From: Acidimicrobiales bacterium
GTDB taxonomy: Bacteria > Actinomycetota > Acidimicrobiia > Acidimicrobiales > JACCXE01
Reading direction: 5' to 3'
Assembly (NCBI GenBank): GCA_035546775.1
Contig: DASZWD010000030.1
Location: 271,526 to 335,525 of the forward strand
Length of the DNA stretch: 64,000 nt
Every line of letters starts with the position of its first letter. The first letter of the stretch is position 1. Below, piece after piece: positions 4,689 to 59,219 of this stretch. The notes under the pieces are model-generated. The model saw nothing but the letters and a program-made list of their open reading frames with translations, had not been told where the DNA came from and searched no databases. The position numbers and the translations under genes are program-made.

Positions 4689-4910
4689 GTGGCCACCACA
4701 GACGGACCGCCTCGTCGGCGATGGTTTCTCGTGTTCGCGGGGCTTTTCTCCGTGTGGTTCGTGACGGGGTTTCTTAGAGGTCTTGTGTTCTTGGAGTGGG
4801 GCGTCCCAGCATCGCTCGGCTGGGGATTGATCATCGGGCTGGCGATGGGAGCGTTCCTGACGGCTGTGGCCTACGTGGCCGAAAAAGCAGCGGGTAACCG
4901 CGTTCGTTGA
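4689..4910 (+). CDS. Small two-helix membrane protein (hypothetical)
   Basis: A 73-residue frame from GTG 4689, divergent from the GH13 gene. It has a basic N-terminus (PPRRR) followed by two clear hydrophobic helices (about residues 12-34 and 42-64) and a short charged tail. I do not recognise the family. No good Shine-Dalgarno sequence or TANNNT box precedes the GTG, which lowers confidence. The frame ends just before the palindromic repeat at 4912-4967. It could be a genuine small membrane protein or a chance frame in GC-rich DNA. The clean two-helix pattern favours the former. Confidence 0.5.
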   Translation: MATTDGPPRRRWFLVFAGLFSVWFVTGFLRGLVFLEWGVPASLGWGLIIGLAMGAFLTAVAYVAEKAAGNRVR

Positions 4911-4911
4911 C

Positions 4912-4967
4912 GACTTATGGCTGCCAAATCCTGTCTTTGACAAGTTTTGGCAGCCACAACTTGGCAA
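4912..4967. repeat. Palindromic repeat, copy 1 (REP/MITE-like)
   Basis: An imperfect hairpin with 16-nt arms and two mismatches: ACTTATGGCTGCCAAA pairs with TTTGGCAGCCACAACT. Over 56 nt this copy aligns to the reverse complement of the hairpin at 21702-21758 with about 42 identical positions by hand count, so the two are one dispersed family rather than chance terminators. It lies between the small membrane ORF and the GH13 remnant, next to the point where the remnant stops matching. Confidence 0.7.
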
Positions 4968-4971
4968 CAGA

Positions 4972-5069: not shown

Positions 5070-5744
5070 TTACCGAGTGAAGACGAGGGTGAATTCGAGG
5101 GTGCCGTCGTCGCCGACCCGGGCGGGGCCACCGGACGGGTTGCCGATGCCGTAGTCGGCGAAGTGGATCGGGATCTCGCCGTTGACCTTGATCTGACCGG
5201 TGACGCGCTTGGCGACGACGTCGAAGGTGACCGACTGGGTGACGCCGTGCAGCGTGAGGTCACCGGTCGCCGTGGCCTTGATCTCCTCGTTCATCGCCAC
5301 CGACGACAGCGCGATCGGCCGCGTGAGCTTGAAGGTGGCCGTCGGGAACTGCGCCGTGTTCATGATGCGGCCGCGGAACTGGCCGTCGCGTTGCGTGCGG
5401 TCCGACGACACCGAGTTCATGTCGATGCTGAACGAACCGGAGTTCACCGTCGTGCCGCTTATGGTGATCGAGCCGGTGACCTTCGAGGTGCGACCGGTCG
5501 CCGTCGCCGACGAACCGAACAACGTCTCCTGCACGCGGTAGCCGACGATGCTGTCCGACGACGCCTTCCACGTTCCGTCGCTCGTGCCGTCGTCGGCGGC
5601 CGCGTCGATGGTGGTCGACGAGTGCGACGCCGTGCTGTCGATCGTCAGCTTCTTGTCGGGATGCTCGAGCACCTTCAAGTAGAAGGCGGAGCCGCCGACG
5701 AGCACGACCACGACCGCGAGGACGACTGCGATGAGCCGTCTCAT
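5070..5744 (-). CDS. YceI-family lipid-binding-like protein, membrane-anchored
   Basis: A 224-residue protein with an N-terminal hydrophobic segment (about 4-22) that is a signal anchor or signal peptide, then a low-complexity Ser/Thr/Asp linker and a YceI domain (about 58-224) with the pattern WKASSDSIVGYRV, FSIDMNSV and LTLHGVTQSVTF. YceI proteins form a lipocalin-like barrel that binds isoprenoid or other lipids outside the cytoplasm. The start overlaps the histidine kinase stop by 4 nt (5741-5744), making it the third gene of an operon with the two-component system. This suggests an envelope function under its control. Confidence 0.88.
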   Translation of the reverse strand: MRRLIAVVLAVVVVLVGGSAFYLKVLEHPDKKLTIDSTASHSSTTIDAAADDGTSDGTWKASSDSIVGYRVQETLFGSSATATGRTSKVTGSITISGTTVNSGSFSIDMNSVSSDRTQRDGQFRGRIMNTAQFPTATFKLTRPIALSSVAMNEEIKATATGDLTLHGVTQSVTFDVVAKRVTGQIKVNGEIPIHFADYGIGNPSGGPARVGDDGTLEFTLVFTR

Positions 5745-12183: not shown

Positions 12184-13301
12184 CGACTCGGGTCGGCTTC
12201 GGGCGCGCCGTCATCACGCCGCCGCTGCCGGTCATGCTCGCCGGCTTCGGTGACCGCGCCGGACCCGCCACCGAAGTGCGCGACGACCTCGAGGTGCGCG
12301 CCTTCTACGCGTCGAGCGACGGTGTCGGGCTCTGCTTGCTGGTGTGCGACCTGCTCGGCATGTCACCCGGGTTCGCCAACCCGGTACGCGCCGCGGTTCG
12401 CGACCTGCTTGATCTGCCGGCGCCGGCCGTGCTCACCGCCTGCATCCACACCCACGCCGGCCCGTCGACGATGGCCGGCTCGGAACGGCTCGGCTGGCCG
12501 ACGCCTGACGGCTACCTCGACATCCTCGTGCGCGGCTGCCTCGACGCGGCGCGCGAAGCGCGCGCCAACGCCGAATCCGCAACCTTTCACTACCGCCGCG
12601 AAGCACTGCCCGACGGGTTGTCGGTCAACCGGCGCGGCCACCCGTACGCTCCGCATTTCGCCGCCCTCGACGTGCGCGCCGCCAGTGGCGCCCGCATCGG
12701 TGCCATCGCCAACGTGTCGATCCATCCCGTCGCCCTCGGCCCGGCGTGCCTGGCGGTGTCGAGCGACTGGGTCGGCTCGTTCCGCAACGAACTCGAACGC
12801 ACCCACGACGGGCGGGCGGTGCTGCTTTCCGGCGCGCTGGGCGACGTCAACCCGCCGCTGCACGCCCACGCCACCGGCTTCTACGACAACGACAACTTCG
12901 AGGACGCCGACGAACTCGGCGTGCGGGTCGCCGGCGTCGTCGGCCCGGCGCTCGACGCTGCCCGACCCGTCGGCCACGGCGCAGTCGGCGTGCGTCGTCA
13001 CCGCTGGGTCGAAGTCGAGGCGACGGGCGCGCTGGCTGCGGTGGCCGGCGTGGCGGGACACGTCCCCGTCGAACTCGTGGAGTGGTGGCTGGGCGACGTC
13101 GAACTCGTCACCGTGCCCGGCGAGGCCTTCCACGCGCTGGGCAACAAGATCGAAGCCGCGGTTGGCGGGCCGATGCTGCTCGCCGGCCTGTCCCCGGTGT
13201 GGCAGGGCTACCTCCCCGACCCCTGGGGCGACGGCTACGAGGAAGGCGTGAGCTATGGCGAGGACTTCGTCGCCGGCGTGCGCGCCGCGTTGCTGTCATG
13301 A
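12180..13301 (+). CDS. Neutral/alkaline ceramidase N-terminal-domain protein
   Basis: 373 residues with GTG start. VGFGRAVITPPLPVMLAGFG, THTHAGPST-like ACIHTHAGPS, and SIHPVALGP followed by SSDW are the metal-site and nucleophile-type signatures of the neutral ceramidase family (PF04734). The protein is about half the length of full ceramidases and has no signal peptide, so it is a short cytoplasmic member common in bacteria. The true substrate may be another amide. It overlaps the MFS gene upstream (GTGA) and nagA downstream (ATGA), hinting that the three share an amino-sugar or amide substrate. Confidence 0.8.
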   Translation: MTTRVGFGRAVITPPLPVMLAGFGDRAGPATEVRDDLEVRAFYASSDGVGLCLLVCDLLGMSPGFANPVRAAVRDLLDLPAPAVLTACIHTHAGPSTMAGSERLGWPTPDGYLDILVRGCLDAAREARANAESATFHYRREALPDGLSVNRRGHPYAPHFAALDVRAASGARIGAIANVSIHPVALGPACLAVSSDWVGSFRNELERTHDGRAVLLSGALGDVNPPLHAHATGFYDNDNFEDADELGVRVAGVVGPALDAARPVGHGAVGVRRHRWVEVEATGALAAVAGVAGHVPVELVEWWLGDVELVTVPGEAFHALGNKIEAAVGGPMLLAGLSPVWQGYLPDPWGDGYEEGVSYGEDFVAGVRAALLS

Positions 13302-20764: not shown

Positions 20765-21679
20765 GTGAGCAGGCTGAATGAGGGGCGCGTCGTTGTCATC
20801 ACCGGCGCGGGCAATGGCATCGGACGCGAGCACGCGCTGCTGTTCGCGCAGACGGGCGCCAAGGTCGTCGTCAACGACCTCGGTGGTGCCCGCGACGGGA
20901 CGGGTTCGGACCAGTCGGCCGCCAACCAGGTGGTCGAAGAGATCAAAGCCATGGGCGGCGAGGCCGTACCGAACTACGACGACGTGTCGGACTACGACGC
21001 CGCGGGTCGCATGATCCAGCAGGCGATCGACACCTTCGGCGGGCTCGACGTGCTGGTGAACAACGCCGGCATTCTGCGCGACCGCATGCTGGTCAACATG
21101 AGCGTCGACGAGTGGGACGCCGTGATCAAGGTGCACCTGCGCGGCACGTTCTGCCCGACGCGTCACGCGGCGGAGTACTGGCGCAATCGCAACAAGGCGG
21201 GCGAGGACAACGACGCCCGCATCATCAACACCACGTCGAGCTCGGGCATCTACGGCAACCCGGGTCAGACGAACTACGGCGCCGCCAAGGCCGGCATCGC
21301 CGCGTTCACGATCATCGCCGGCATGGAACTCGAGCGTTACGGGATCACCGTCAACGCCATCGCGCCGGGCGCGCTGACCCGCATGACCGAGGACCTCAAC
21401 CCGAACCGTCCCCAGCCCAAGGAAGGCGAGTGGAACGCGTTCGGTCCCGAGAACATCGCGCCGCTCGTGGTGTGGCTCGGCTCGCCCGAGTCACGCGACA
21501 TCAACGCTCGCGTCTTCAACGTGGCGGGCGGCCGCATCTCGGTGGCCGAAGGTTGGACCTACGGCCCCGGTGAGGACCACGGCGCCAAGTGGGATCCCGA
21601 AGAACTCGGCAAGGTCATCCCCGGTCTGGTGGAAAAAGCGGCGCCCAACGTCGCCCAAGCCCGCCGCGCCGCCCGCTAA
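20765..21679 (+). CDS. SDR, 3-hydroxyacyl-CoA dehydrogenase-like (HSD17B4 type)
   Basis: 304 residues from GTG 20765, with a strong ribosome site AGGGAG (20753-20758) 6 nt upstream. It has the Rossmann motif TGAGNGIG, the VVNDLGG stretch typical of the multifunctional-enzyme-2 dehydrogenase group, NNAGILRD, catalytic Ser (NTTSSSG), and Tyr/Lys in NYGAAKAG. It would oxidise 3-hydroxyacyl-CoA with NAD+. Co-directional with the acyl-CoA dehydrogenase, this fits a fatty-acid or steroid side-chain degradation step. Confidence 0.92.
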   Translation: MSRLNEGRVVVITGAGNGIGREHALLFAQTGAKVVVNDLGGARDGTGSDQSAANQVVEEIKAMGGEAVPNYDDVSDYDAAGRMIQQAIDTFGGLDVLVNNAGILRDRMLVNMSVDEWDAVIKVHLRGTFCPTRHAAEYWRNRNKAGEDNDARIINTTSSSGIYGNPGQTNYGAAKAGIAAFTIIAGMELERYGITVNAIAPGALTRMTEDLNPNRPQPKEGEWNAFGPENIAPLVVWLGSPESRDINARVFNVAGGRISVAEGWTYGPGEDHGAKWDPEELGKVIPGLVEKAAPNVAQARRAAR

Positions 21680-21701
21680 TTGACGGAAACACAACTTTGA
21701 C

Positions 21702-21758
21702 GACGAGTTTTGGCCGCCATATCGCGTCTATGACGGGAAATGGCGGCCATAACTCGTC
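21702..21758. repeat. Palindromic repeat, copy 2 (REP/MITE-like)
   Basis: A hairpin with 19-bp arms and one mismatch: GACGAGTTTTGGCCGCCAT (21702-21720) and its complement (21740-21758), with a 19-nt loop. Its reverse complement aligns with the copy at 4912-4967 at about 75% over 56 nt, including loop positions that are not constrained by pairing. It lies in the 100-bp gap between the SDR and the GH78 gene, which run in the same direction, so a pure terminator role is possible but does not explain the loop similarity. Confidence 0.7.
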
Positions 21759-21779
21759 ACAGAAGAACGGCGGGCGCGC

Positions 21780-24248
21780 GTGAGGGTCGTTGATCTCCGC
21801 TATGAACGACTCGTCGACCCGATCGGTCTCGACACGCCCCACCCGCGACTGACGTGGCGCATCGAGGCCGACGGCGACGAGCGCGACGTCGTTCAGACGG
21901 CGTACGAAGTCGAAGTCGACGACTGGAGTACCGGCCGCGTCGAGTCGTGGCGCCAGCAAGTCACCTACGACGGACCGGTGCTCCGCTCAGCGTGGAACGG
22001 AGGGTGGCGAGTACGTGTGTGGACGAGCGCGGGTCCCTCCCGGTGGTCCGACTGGGCGCAATTCCAGACCGGGATCCTCGACCCCAGCGAGTGGGTGGCA
22101 CGCATGATCGTCGCCGATCACCCGACTACCCCCGTGGTGCGGTTCACGCGCACGATCGACGTACCCGACGACATCGACTCCGCTCTCCTCCGGCTGAGCG
22201 CGCACGGCATTGTCGACGCAACCGTCAACGGCCAACCGGTCAGCAGCGAAGTGCTCGCTCCCGGGTGGACGAGCTACGACCAGCGTCTCGTGGTGCGAAC
22301 CCACGACCTCAAGGCAGTGCTCAATCCGGGCCAAGTCGAGCTGGCGCTCACCGTCGCGCCCGGTTGGTACAGCGGACGCATCGGTTTCCGTGACGCAGGG
22401 CCGCTGTATGGCACACACGTCGGCGTCTTCGGGCAGCTCGAGATCGTGCGCGCGCACGCCGATCGGATAGTCATCGGTACCGACGAGACGTGGACAGCGA
22501 CCACAACCGAGTACTCGCTCGCCGAGATCTACGACGGCGAGGACATCGACGAAGCGCGCGCCGGTCAGCCGGTGCCAGTCCAGATTCTGGACTCGTTCGA
22601 TCCCGCGGTGCTGTGCGCGCCGGCGGTGCCGCCGGTGCGGCGTACCGAAGTGCTGCAGCCCGTATCCGTCAACGGGTCGATCCTCGACTTCGGGCAGAAC
22701 CTCGTCGGGTGGTTGCGCGTGCGCGGCGTCCCCGACGGCAGGACGGTCACGCTGCGTCACGCCGAGATCCTCGACAACGACGGGCAGCTCTTCACCGCGC
22801 CGCTGCGCACCGCCCGCGCCACCGACGTGTTCACGGGCGGCGACTACGAGCCGCGCTTCACGTTCCACGGTTTCCGCTACGCCGAGGTCACCGGCGTGTC
22901 GCCCGACGATGTGGAAGTCGAAGCCGTTGTGATCCACAGCGACCTCGAGCGCATCGGCACGTTCGAGTGCTCCGACCCCCTGCTCAACCGTCTCCACGAA
23001 AACGCGGTGTGGGGCTGGCGGGGCAACTCCGTCGCCGTGCCGACGGACTGCCCGCAGCGCGACGAGCGCCTCGGCTGGACCGGCGACGCTCAGGTCTTCT
23101 CCCCCACCGCGTCGTTCCTCTACGACGCGGAGACGTTCTGGCAGAACTGGCTGGCCGACGTCGCCGCTGACCAGCGCGCCGACGGGGCTGTCCCGAGCGT
23201 CGTGCCCGACATTGGCCTCGAGATCCGCGGCGCGTGCGGGTGGGGCGACGCCGCGGTCGTGGTTCCGTGGACGACCTATGTCGCCTACGGCGACGACACG
23301 GTGCTGCGCGAGGCGCTGCCGTCGATGCGGGCGTCGGTCGACTACGTGTACTCACGCCTCGACGCCGACCACCGCTGGACCCAGGACTTCCAGTACGGCG
23401 ACTGGCTCGACCCCGACGCGCCGACTGAGCAGCCGTGGCGGGCCAAGGCGAGGTTCGACCTCGTCGCCACCGCGTACGCCGCGCACGTGGCGGACTTGCT
23501 GGCGCGCACCGCAACCGTGCTCGGCGAAGACGCGCTGGCGGCACATTCACGGGCGCGCTTCGAGACGGTGCGCGCCGCGTGGTGGGAGCACTACGGCGAC
23601 ACGGCGGCGACAACGCAGACGGGTGCGGCCCTGGCCATCGCCTTCGCCCTCGTGCCCGACGACGAAGCGCGCTTCAAGATGGGCGAGGCGCTGGCGCTGC
23701 GCGTGCACGACGCCGGCGACCATCTCGCGACCGGCTTCCTCGGCACGCCGTTACTGCTGCCGTCGCTGGCGGCGACGGGTCACCTCGACGTGGCCTACGA
23801 CGTGTTGCTGCAACGCAGCGCGCCGTCGTGGCTCTACACCGTCCTCGCCGGTGCCACGACAATCTGGGAGCGGTGGGACGCGTTGCGCGAGGACGGGTCG
23901 GTCCCGCTCGGGTCGCTCGACATCGGTTCGGGCAGTTCGATGGTGTCGTACAACCACTACGCCTACGGCGCCGTCGCCGAGTGGCTGCACACCGCTGTCG
24001 CCGGTCTGCGCCCTGATCCCGACGACCCCGGCTATCACCATTTCTTCGTCGAGCCCCGCCCGGGTGGAGGCCTCACCCGCGCGTCGGCGGCGCGGCAGAC
24101 TCGTTACGGCACCGCATCGGTCGCATGGCGCCTCGAGGGCGATCAGCTACACGTCGACGTCGAAGTCCCGCCAAACACCTCGGCGACCGTCATGCTGCCC
24201 GACGGCTCCACGCAGCGCGTCGGCTCAGGCGTCCACGCCTTCGGTTAG
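21780..24248 (+). CDS. Alpha-L-rhamnosidase (GH78)
   Basis: 822 residues from GTG 21780. The start LRYERLVDPIGLDTPHPRLTW is the typical N-terminal beta domain of GH78. The (alpha/alpha)6 catalytic domain holds DCPQRDERLGWTGDAQ (about 420-436; catalytic acid region), GDWLDP and WERWD. There is no signal peptide, so it acts on imported rhamnosides. The length is near the family norm (about 900). The stop overlaps the convergent protease stop by TTAG. No rhamnose catabolic genes are adjacent, though GH3 and GH172 enzymes occur nearby. Confidence 0.92.
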   Translation: MRVVDLRYERLVDPIGLDTPHPRLTWRIEADGDERDVVQTAYEVEVDDWSTGRVESWRQQVTYDGPVLRSAWNGGWRVRVWTSAGPSRWSDWAQFQTGILDPSEWVARMIVADHPTTPVVRFTRTIDVPDDIDSALLRLSAHGIVDATVNGQPVSSEVLAPGWTSYDQRLVVRTHDLKAVLNPGQVELALTVAPGWYSGRIGFRDAGPLYGTHVGVFGQLEIVRAHADRIVIGTDETWTATTTEYSLAEIYDGEDIDEARAGQPVPVQILDSFDPAVLCAPAVPPVRRTEVLQPVSVNGSILDFGQNLVGWLRVRGVPDGRTVTLRHAEILDNDGQLFTAPLRTARATDVFTGGDYEPRFTFHGFRYAEVTGVSPDDVEVEAVVIHSDLERIGTFECSDPLLNRLHENAVWGWRGNSVAVPTDCPQRDERLGWTGDAQVFSPTASFLYDAETFWQNWLADVAADQRADGAVPSVVPDIGLEIRGACGWGDAAVVVPWTTYVAYGDDTVLREALPSMRASVDYVYSRLDADHRWTQDFQYGDWLDPDAPTEQPWRAKARFDLVATAYAAHVADLLARTATVLGEDALAAHSRARFETVRAAWWEHYGDTAATTQTGAALAIAFALVPDDEARFKMGEALALRVHDAGDHLATGFLGTPLLLPSLAATGHLDVAYDVLLQRSAPSWLYTVLAGATTIWERWDALREDGSVPLGSLDIGSGSSMVSYNHYAYGAVAEWLHTAVAGLRPDPDDPGYHHFFVEPRPGGGLTRASAARQTRYGTASVAWRLEGDQLHVDVEVPPNTSATVMLPDGSTQRVGSGVHAFG

Positions 24249-42997: not shown

Positions 42998-43044
42998 CCG
43001 TGTGCATCTCCAGGCCGGCAGAGCCGGCCTAGGGATGCACACGG
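42998..43044. terminator. Bidirectional hairpin between convergent genes
   Basis: Arms of 22 nt (CCGTGTGCATCTCC onward, 42998-43019, and 43023-43044) pair with two mismatches around a 3-nt loop AGA. The element fills the gap exactly: it starts 1 nt after the monooxygenase stop and abuts the amidohydrolase stop at 43045. No T-tract follows. It may act as a two-way transcription end or mRNA stabiliser, or be a repeat of the same class as the hairpins at 48921 and 59167. Confidence 0.65.
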
Positions 43045-48709: not shown

Positions 48710-50517
48710 TCGACGTCGCCTCGCCCCTGACCGGCATTGTCGCGTCCGTCGCCGTGAGCGTCGGCGACCACGTGCACGCCGGCCAGACCGTCGCCGTCGT
48801 CGAGTCGATGAAGATGGAACACGTCGTCGAAGCCGGCAGCGACGGCGTCGTCGCCACGATCAGCGTCAAGCCGGGCGACAACGTCACCCCCGGCACGGCC
48901 CTTCTCACGTTGACCCCCCAGGTTTTTGTGTCCCCAGATCCGAAAGACCCGAACCTGGGGACACAAAAACCGGCGGGCGACCCTCGGGCGGACCTCGCCG
49001 AGGTCGTGGCGCGGCATGAAGTCGGGCTCGACGCGCACCGACCCGAGGCGGTGGCGCGGCGGCGCAAGACCGGGCAGCGCACGGCGCGCGAGAACGTCGC
49101 CGACCTGATCGACCCGGGCACGCTGGTCGAGTACGGACCGATCGTCGTGGCCGCGCAACGGCGTCGCCGTTCGATCGACGACCTGATCACGCAGACGCCG
49201 GCCGACGGCATGATCGGCGGGATCGCGAAAGTCGACGGCCGCCCGACGGTCGTGGTGTCGTACGACTACACCGTGCTCGCCGGGACGCAAGGCGCGCAGA
49301 ATCACCGCAAGAAGGACCGCCTCTTCGAACTGGCGGCGACGCTGCGAGCCCCGGTGGTGTTCTTCACCGAAGGCGGCGGTGGGCGCCCCGGCGACACCGA
49401 CGGCATCGGCGGCTCGGGCCTCGACGTGCTGGCGTTCCGGCTCTTCGGCGAGCTGTCGGGCCTCGTGCCGCTCGTCGGCATCAACAGCGGTCGCTGCTTC
49501 GCCGGCAACGCCGCCATCCTCGGGTGTTGCGACGTCGTGATCGCAACGCAGAACTCCAACATCGGGATGGGCGGTCCGGCGATGGTCGAAGGCGGCGGCC
49601 TCGGTGTCTTCAAGCCCGAGGAAATCGGCCCGATGAGCGTGCAGGTGCCCAACGGCGTGGTCGACATCGCAGTGGCCGACGAAGCCGAAGCCGTCGCCGT
49701 TGCCAAGCTTTACCTGTCGTACTTCGGCGGGCGGCGTGACGACTGGACCTATCGCGATCCGACACGCTGCCGCGACGTCGTGCCCGAGAACCGCCTGCGC
49801 GTCTACGACACGCGCGCCGCCGTCGCGGCCATCGCCGATGACGAGTCCGTCCTCGAGATCCGTCCACACTTCGGCCTCGGCATGGTCACGGCCTTCATCC
49901 GCGTCGAAGGGCGGCCGATAGGTGTAATTGCGAACAATCCCACCCACCTCGCGGGCGCGATCGACGCCGATGGCGCCGACAAGGCGGCGCGCTTCATGCA
50001 GTTGTGCGACGCGTTCGACATCCCATTGCTGATGCTGTGCGACACGCCGGGGATCATGGTCGGACCCGAAGTCGAGAAGACGGCGCTGGTGCGCCACGTG
50101 AGTCGCATGTTCGTCGTGGGCGCCAACGTGACGGTGCCGACGATGACCATCGTGTTGCGCAAGGGCTACGGCCTCGGCGCCATGACGATGGCGGCCGGGT
50201 GTTTCAAGTCGCCGCTGTTCACCGTCGCCTGGCCCACGGGCGAGTTCGGCGGCATGGGCCTCGAGGGCGCGGTGCGCCTGGGCTATCGGCGCGAACTCGA
50301 GGCGATCGAGGACGACGCCGAACGCGAGCGCGTGTTCGAAGAGATGGTGGCCCGGATGTACGAACACGGCAAAGCGATCAACTCTGCCAGCTACTTCGAG
50401 ATCGACGACGTGATCGACCCGGCCGACTCCCGCCGCTGGATCACGTCCGCCCTCGACGCCGTGCCGCCGGCTCCGGTGCGCGAGGGAAAGAAGCGACCCA
50501 ACGTTGACACCTGGTGA
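48706..50517 (+). CDS. Biotin-carrier / acyl-CoA carboxyltransferase fusion
   Basis: 603 residues from GTG 48706. Residues 1-70 form a biotinyl domain with ESMKM and biotin Lys36. After a linker (about 71-95), residues 100-603 are a propionyl/acetyl-CoA carboxyltransferase of the PccB/AccD5 type (VLAGTQGAQNHRKK, GGIGGSGLDV-like GDTDGIGGSGLDVLAF, NSGRCFAGNAA, TPGIMVGPE, and GAMTMAAG). Biotin carboxylase is not in the window, so the enzyme needs a partner encoded elsewhere. The linker is encoded by a 51-bp inverted repeat (see 48921-48971). It is coupled to MerR (GTGA). Confidence 0.9.
   Translation: MIDVASPLTGIVASVAVSVGDHVHAGQTVAVVESMKMEHVVEAGSDGVVATISVKPGDNVTPGTALLTLTPQVFVSPDPKDPNLGTQKPAGDPRADLAEVVARHEVGLDAHRPEAVARRRKTGQRTARENVADLIDPGTLVEYGPIVVAAQRRRRSIDDLITQTPADGMIGGIAKVDGRPTVVVSYDYTVLAGTQGAQNHRKKDRLFELAATLRAPVVFFTEGGGGRPGDTDGIGGSGLDVLAFRLFGELSGLVPLVGINSGRCFAGNAAILGCCDVVIATQNSNIGMGGPAMVEGGGLGVFKPEEIGPMSVQVPNGVVDIAVADEAEAVAVAKLYLSYFGGRRDDWTYRDPTRCRDVVPENRLRVYDTRAAVAAIADDESVLEIRPHFGLGMVTAFIRVEGRPIGVIANNPTHLAGAIDADGADKAARFMQLCDAFDIPLLMLCDTPGIMVGPEVEKTALVRHVSRMFVVGANVTVPTMTIVLRKGYGLGAMTMAAGCFKSPLFTVAWPTGEFGGMGLEGAVRLGYRRELEAIEDDAERERVFEEMVARMYEHGKAINSASYFEIDDVIDPADSRRWITSALDAVPPAPVREGKKRPNVDTW
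48921..48971. repeat. In-frame palindromic element inside the biotin-carboxyltransferase gene
   Basis: GGTTTTTGTGTCCCCAG (48921-48937) and its exact complement (48955-48971) flank a 17-nt centre. The 51-bp unit is a multiple of 3 and encodes VFVSPDPKDPNLGTQK in the linker of the fusion protein (residues 73-88). If removed, the flanking codons join in frame as TPQAGDPR. Its shape recalls Rickettsia-type palindromic elements that insert in genes without frameshift. It shares the TTGTGTYC and CCGAAA core with the hairpin at 59167-59219. Confidence 0.75.
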
Positions 50518-59166: not shown

Positions 59167-59219
59167 ACAAACTTGTGTTCTGTCGCACCCGAAACGGGTG
59201 CGACAGAACACAAGTTTGT
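59167..59219. terminator. Perfect 25-bp-arm hairpin between hypB and a convergent hydrolase gene
   Basis: The left arm begins ACAAACTTGTGTTC (59167-59191), the loop is AAA (59192-59194), and the right arm (59195-59219) is an exact complement over 25 bp. It overlaps the last base position of the convergent hydrolase stop codon. It suits a terminator for both genes, but the length and perfection are unusual, and its TTGTGTYC outer arms plus CCGAAA centre recur in the in-gene element at 48921-48971. Confidence 0.75.

Follow-up and report, generated by a model that had tools for sequence, protein, structure and literature searches.

Two hairpins that lie about 17 kb apart in unrelated intergenic gaps of an Acidimicrobiales genome raise the question of whether they are related by more than chance, and if so, what disperses them. 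An earlier note, made from the 64,000-nucleotide stretch analyzed here (the window), had placed the hairpins at 4912-4967 and 21702-21758 and read them as a dispersed, non-autonomous palindromic repeat family, with a RAYT or IS200/605-type transposase as the suspected partner. We found that the hairpins are real and belong to a larger family than the note had reported. Its interpretation was partly supported: the family is dispersed, lineage-specific and non-autonomous in appearance, but the suspected partner and the argument for common descent did not hold. Instead, the same family brackets a gene for a predicted nuclease, and this arrangement recurs with different palindromes across the phylum, which points to a little-studied kind of selfish mobile DNA.

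A family of 69-bp palindromes

Both palindromes are present in the window. The best ungapped match of 4912-4967 to the reverse complement of the second copy is 39 of 56 positions, compared with about 42 counted in the earlier note, and over the full elements it is 49/69 in inverted and 46/69 in direct orientation. A pattern built from the shared arms, TGGCNGCCA-N(10-35)-TGGCNGCCA, occurs exactly twice in the window, with 0 expected from 100 dinucleotide shuffles. In the whole 3.75-Mb genome it occurs at 14 places, all with a spacer of exactly 21 bp, whereas the reversed control pattern gave 0 hits. A covariance model built from these copies added three more, giving a total of 17 copies (E <= 4e-6), which we refer to as family A. 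Furthermore, a symmetric weight matrix scored 16 copies at 74-92 bits, while the next best site in ~0.8 Mb reached 17.7 bits and came from a different palindrome family, with no decaying copies between 18 and 74 bits.

Column information from the 17 copies drops to background beyond ±34 bp of the center, so each element is 69 bp, a little longer than the note had marked. Copy 1 spans 4903-4971 (center 4937; core 4918-4956, TGGCTGCCAAATCCTGTCTTTGACAAGTTTTGGCAGCCA; model score 71.3 bits). Its left end overlaps the stop of a small membrane-protein-like ORF on the + strand ending at 4910, and it lies before the 3' end of a − strand gene (5070-5744). Copy 2 spans 21696-21764 (core 21711-21749, TGGCCGCCATATCGCGTCTATGACGGGAAATGGCGGCCA; 77.3 bits) and sits 16 bp after the stop of the gene at 20765-21679 and 15 bp before the start of the gene at 21780-24248. 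Both copies fold better than shuffled sequences (z −3.6 to −10.5). The consensus of one half is TTTnnYGCCRnnTTnTGGCSGCCAWWTCGCGWC, followed by three nearly free bases and the mirror half. Conservation is strongest at ±2-4 and ±11-19, motif blocks repeat about every 12 bp, and TGGCSGCCA is itself a dyad. Although 14 of the copies were picked by an exact core, positions outside that pattern (the GNC blocks at ±2-4 and ±26-28) are equally conserved.

The earlier note had argued that a shared loop means common descent rather than convergent terminators. This argument does not hold, as the three center bases are nearly free in the family. At the 41 variable positions, the mean best pairwise identity is 21.05, compared with 20.96±0.15 when columns are drawn independently, and pairing at variable offsets is 162 of 320 compared with 151.7±7.2 expected. 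The copies thus look like independent draws from one dyad-symmetric weight matrix, and hairpin pairing as such is not what is kept. No Rfam match was found at the copies, and covariation was at or near chance.

With a simple coding-score gene caller, 9 of the 17 copies lie between convergent genes, 6 between tandem genes (one behind a tRNA-Ser-like sequence), and 2 between divergent genes; copy 1 is probably convergent too, because of the small ORF ending at 4910. Among 745 gene junctions in ~0.8 Mb, 16% are convergent (p 5e-4 for 9/17). The neighboring genes share no function. A search for the family-A pattern in 396 other genomes of the order, in a collection of genome contigs and in viral contigs returned only chance coding hits or none, and early weak hits in two genomes (G003 and G010) proved to be other hairpins, so the exact family appears confined to this lineage. 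Empty sites, which the note had suggested looking for, do exist: at five family-A junctions that were compared with the relatives G001 or G002, the element is absent there, and clearer cases come from another genus (g34). The replication gene dnaA is on contig C2, but no conclusion on location relative to the origin could be drawn from a 75-contig draft.

The bracketed nuclease genes

A search of the genome for Y1/RAYT/IS200-type transposases (PF01797) gave 0 hits, while 6 of 14 control genomes returned hits. Instead, two family-A elements, 956 bp apart center to center, bracket one gene on another contig (C11:44740-45591) that encodes an AbiEi_4-DUF559-type protein with paralogs elsewhere in the genome. 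Pfam places AbiEi_4 at the N terminus and DUF559 or the MTES_1575 REase at the C terminus, partly below curated cut-offs; the C11 protein itself has no Pfam hit and is placed by homology to its paralogs. AbiEi domains are annotated as DNA-binding antitoxin regulators, and DUF559 has been described as a domain often found in Vsr-like PD-(D/E)XK nucleases (PMC12907096). In 22 aligned proteins, the nuclease motif D..E-x-D-G-x-x-H..D-x-x-R..GW, with the catalytic residues of a Vsr/EDxHD-type PD-(D/E)XK domain, is kept or nearly kept. The profile matches PDB 3hrl, an endonuclease-like protein, at 2e-10 and PDB 3r3p, annotated as a mobile intron protein, at 7e-4. The latter structure is that of I-Bth0305I, a Vsr-like homing endonuclease.

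A palindrome scan of contigs C30, C57 and C72 revealed several other interspersed palindrome families, and the flanks of the paralogs carried exactly these. More specifically, four further paralogs each lie between a palindrome pair of a different family or stem variant: C37:26991 with family B (CTTCTGTGAAGG), C4:84689 with family E (CCGTGTGC), and C2:75275 and C37:11991 with two stem variants that have the GAAAGACCC loop. These palindromes mostly also occur as solo copies, whereas one-sided or no palindromes were seen at other paralogs. Two such solo copies lie in the window. The palindrome at 42998-43044 (arms 42998-43019 and 43023-43044; CCGTGTGCATCTCCAGG...) belongs to family E, of the same superfamily, and has the same arm sequence as the palindrome flanking the paralog at C4:84689. 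The palindrome at 48915-48977 (C-like, stem GGTTTTTGTGTCCCCAG) shares the GAAAGACCC loop with the palindromes at the paralogs at C37:11991, C2:75275 and C72:25192; as its stem differs, membership in this superfamily is likely but not proven.

To assess whether this arrangement is general, we searched 118 genomes of the order with one paralog, which gave loci in many genera. Many of these have a matched palindrome pair just outside the gene, with a sequence peculiar to that genome. Scored as left/right flank similarity of 20 or more, 19 of 41 nuclease loci have matched flanks, compared with 1 of 184 control genes (Fisher p 2e-15). The controls come from the window's genome only, and some gene ends of paralogs were called short, which lowers the count. 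In a phylum-wide sample, 102 of 296 genomes have the protein, and 11 of 22 testable loci have matched flanks. About half of the DUF559 genes therefore lack them, and the flanking pair occurs in both direct and inverted orientation. The nuclease was not found in plasmid or phage collections with one query.

Mobility and its possible mechanism

Genus g34 provided the best test of mobility. Four of its species have 7-8 copies of a 41-bp palindrome (TCTGCGCG-25-CGCGCAGA) and two have none, so that copy number goes with the lineage. One orthologous locus with alignable flanks shows three states, without a polarized direction of gain or loss: a solo palindrome in the genome G394, palindrome-nuclease-palindrome in G034 (the difference being the gene plus one palindrome, 1028 bp), and palindrome-DUF4268-palindrome-nuclease-palindrome in G117, where the right flank is cut by the contig end. 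The DUF4268 gene (at the locus C47:1-2163 of G117) matches PDC-S11, a candidate defense system of PADLOC, and is possible cargo. Furthermore, at ~91% identity within the genus, solo palindromes are shared at some orthologous junctions (G034/G117 and G242/G394) and missing at others (sites B, E, F and H). Site H has the element only in G034, site B has it in G034 and G117 but not in G199, and site F retains only a decayed half in G394. These empty sites are only roughly clean and show no clear target duplication. In the g34 family, too, the halves do not covary: pairing at variable stem positions is 196 compared with 217.9±6.3 expected, fewer than chance, offset 8 is kept mismatched (A in one half, G in the other), and the loop bases avoid pairing (2/30 at offsets 1 and 2).

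In the window's own genus, G001 has an orthologous nuclease at the C11 locus without family-A palindromes. Gene and palindrome can therefore part, and we rejected the reading that the C11 gene is a recent arrival together with its palindromes. At two further family-A loci (L003 and L031), a neighboring accessory gene, a PEP mutase and a HEAT-repeat gene, respectively, is absent together with the element in G001. This is suggestive of units of gene plus palindrome, but gene loss in G001 is as likely, and we did not use it as proof.

Taken together, we consider it more likely than not that the hairpins are solo copies of a palindromic mobile repeat (P) whose cognate enzyme is an AbiEi_4-DUF559 protein, in a REP/RAYT-like system driven by a homing-type nuclease. 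Mobility and association are well supported. The sequences themselves establish that P copies are dispersed between genes, that cognate nuclease genes are bracketed by two P, that each nuclease lineage has its own P family, and that units of gene plus P, as well as solo P, differ between species. In contrast, it is inferred that the nuclease binds and cuts P as a dyad, that repair against a P-gene-P copy moves the gene into a solo P (homing, with the repeats as homology arms), and that recombination between the two P leaves a solo P behind, like a solo LTR. P may first land at a new site by insertion of P-gene-P followed by loss of the gene, or by direct transposition. In this view, copies survive mostly at the 3' ends of genes, where they presumably do least harm and may act as terminators. 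The occurrence of both orientations of the flanking pair is not explained by plain homing alone, and the copies show no pairwise descent signal.

The main rival, between which and homing the data do not decide but which we regard as doubtful, is a REP/RAYT-like or IS-like transposition of P itself. Here, P would be the end of a transposon, recognized as a hairpin or as a terminal repeat, P-nuclease-P the autonomous element, and solo P miniature, MITE-like elements moved in trans by the nuclease. The organization is that of REP/RAYT (PMC2817692), solo P appears at sites that close relatives lack, and the loop bases of the g34 family avoid pairing. However, no Y1 transposase was found, variable stem positions do not covary in family A or in the g34 family, conservation is highest inside rather than at the ends as in a MITE of a DDE or IS transposon, no clear target duplication was seen, and a Vsr-like nuclease is not known to have strand-transfer activity. 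It is less likely still that P is an immobile operator or chromosome-organizing site, bound by the AbiEi/DUF559 protein or another factor and kept by selection. The independent draws from one weight matrix, the dyad and the AbiEi annotation fit such a site, but the copies sit behind genes rather than in promoters, vary strongly in presence between species, and mark a site at which units of gene plus P differ. Ordinary bidirectional terminators copied between loci are the least probable reading. The strong hairpins just behind stop codons, often between convergent genes, would suit them, yet there is no T-run, and terminators need no conserved sequence, while the TGGCSGCCA, GNC and GCC positions are nearly invariant and free stem positions do not covary. 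Neither do terminators explain the pairs around DUF559 genes.

Compared with REP elements and their RAYTs (REP-associated tyrosine transposases), the system shares short, species-specific intergenic palindromes, a gene flanked by two of them, a separate palindrome family for each gene lineage, and dispersed solo copies. It is not a member, because the partner is an AbiEi_4-DUF559 Vsr-like nuclease and not a Y1/HUH transposase; moreover, its palindromes are 45-70 bp long in about 8-17 copies, and the flanking pair may be direct as well as inverted. Free-standing homing endonuclease genes of the Vsr-like EDxHD type, such as I-Bth0305I, share the nuclease superfamily by profile, the presence or absence of the gene at its recognition-like site in relatives, and independence from a transposase, but here the site is a dispersed multi-copy palindrome that remains whole on both sides of the gene, and an N-terminal AbiEi_4 domain is fused. 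The array in G117, with imperfect palindromes in direct orientation and a defense-type cargo gene, resembles integron cassettes with attC sites. No integrase was seen in the arrays read, and P is conserved in sequence inside, whereas attC is conserved only at its boxes. The AbiEi_4 domain is shared with type IV toxin-antitoxin AbiEi antitoxins; units of about 1 kb hold this single gene between palindromes, with a fused nuclease domain and no toxin gene apparent in the unit.

A broader reading remains possible, although we hold it only tentatively: a phylum-wide class of mobile element in which the nuclease and its own dispersed palindromes form a closed selfish system that also carries cargo such as defense genes as units of gene plus palindrome, mechanistically distinct from RAYT/REP, integrons and DDE transposons. 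Literature searches found no description of DUF559 proteins with palindromic repeats in the open-access papers covered, which left out most subscription papers and preprints, and only 14 open-access papers name DUF559 at all. If these common actinobacterial proteins without an assigned role are the enzymes of palindromic mobile repeats, this would explain both the orphan genes and several families of intergenic hairpins at once, and would represent a second, enzymatically unrelated solution to the REP/RAYT design. As each nuclease comes with its own natural site family, site specificity could be read off genomes.

Further repeats and candidates

One other gene between two C-type palindromes, at C30:22878-23704, proved to be an ordinary enoyl-CoA-hydratase-like gene flanked by two different palindrome subfamilies. 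Another repeat family of ~80 bp (TTTGTGGGGGTGAAAC...TTCGCCCCCAGAAAG) was found at C34:32517, C72:164183 and C44:22257 and around position 12296 of a C2 locus (L139), with three closely similar copies, and a related sequence follows the DUF559 paralog at C2:81414. Within the window, a perfect 25-bp inverted repeat with a loop of 3 (ACAAACTTGTGTTCTGTCGCACCCG) at 59167-59219 is single in the ~0.8 Mb scanned and may be a further palindrome family or a terminator. Finally, positions 2527-2594 (− strand) match the Rfam family ASdes (RF01781, 66.5 bits), an sRNA family described from M. tuberculosis, although this match may only reflect conservation of a coding sequence.
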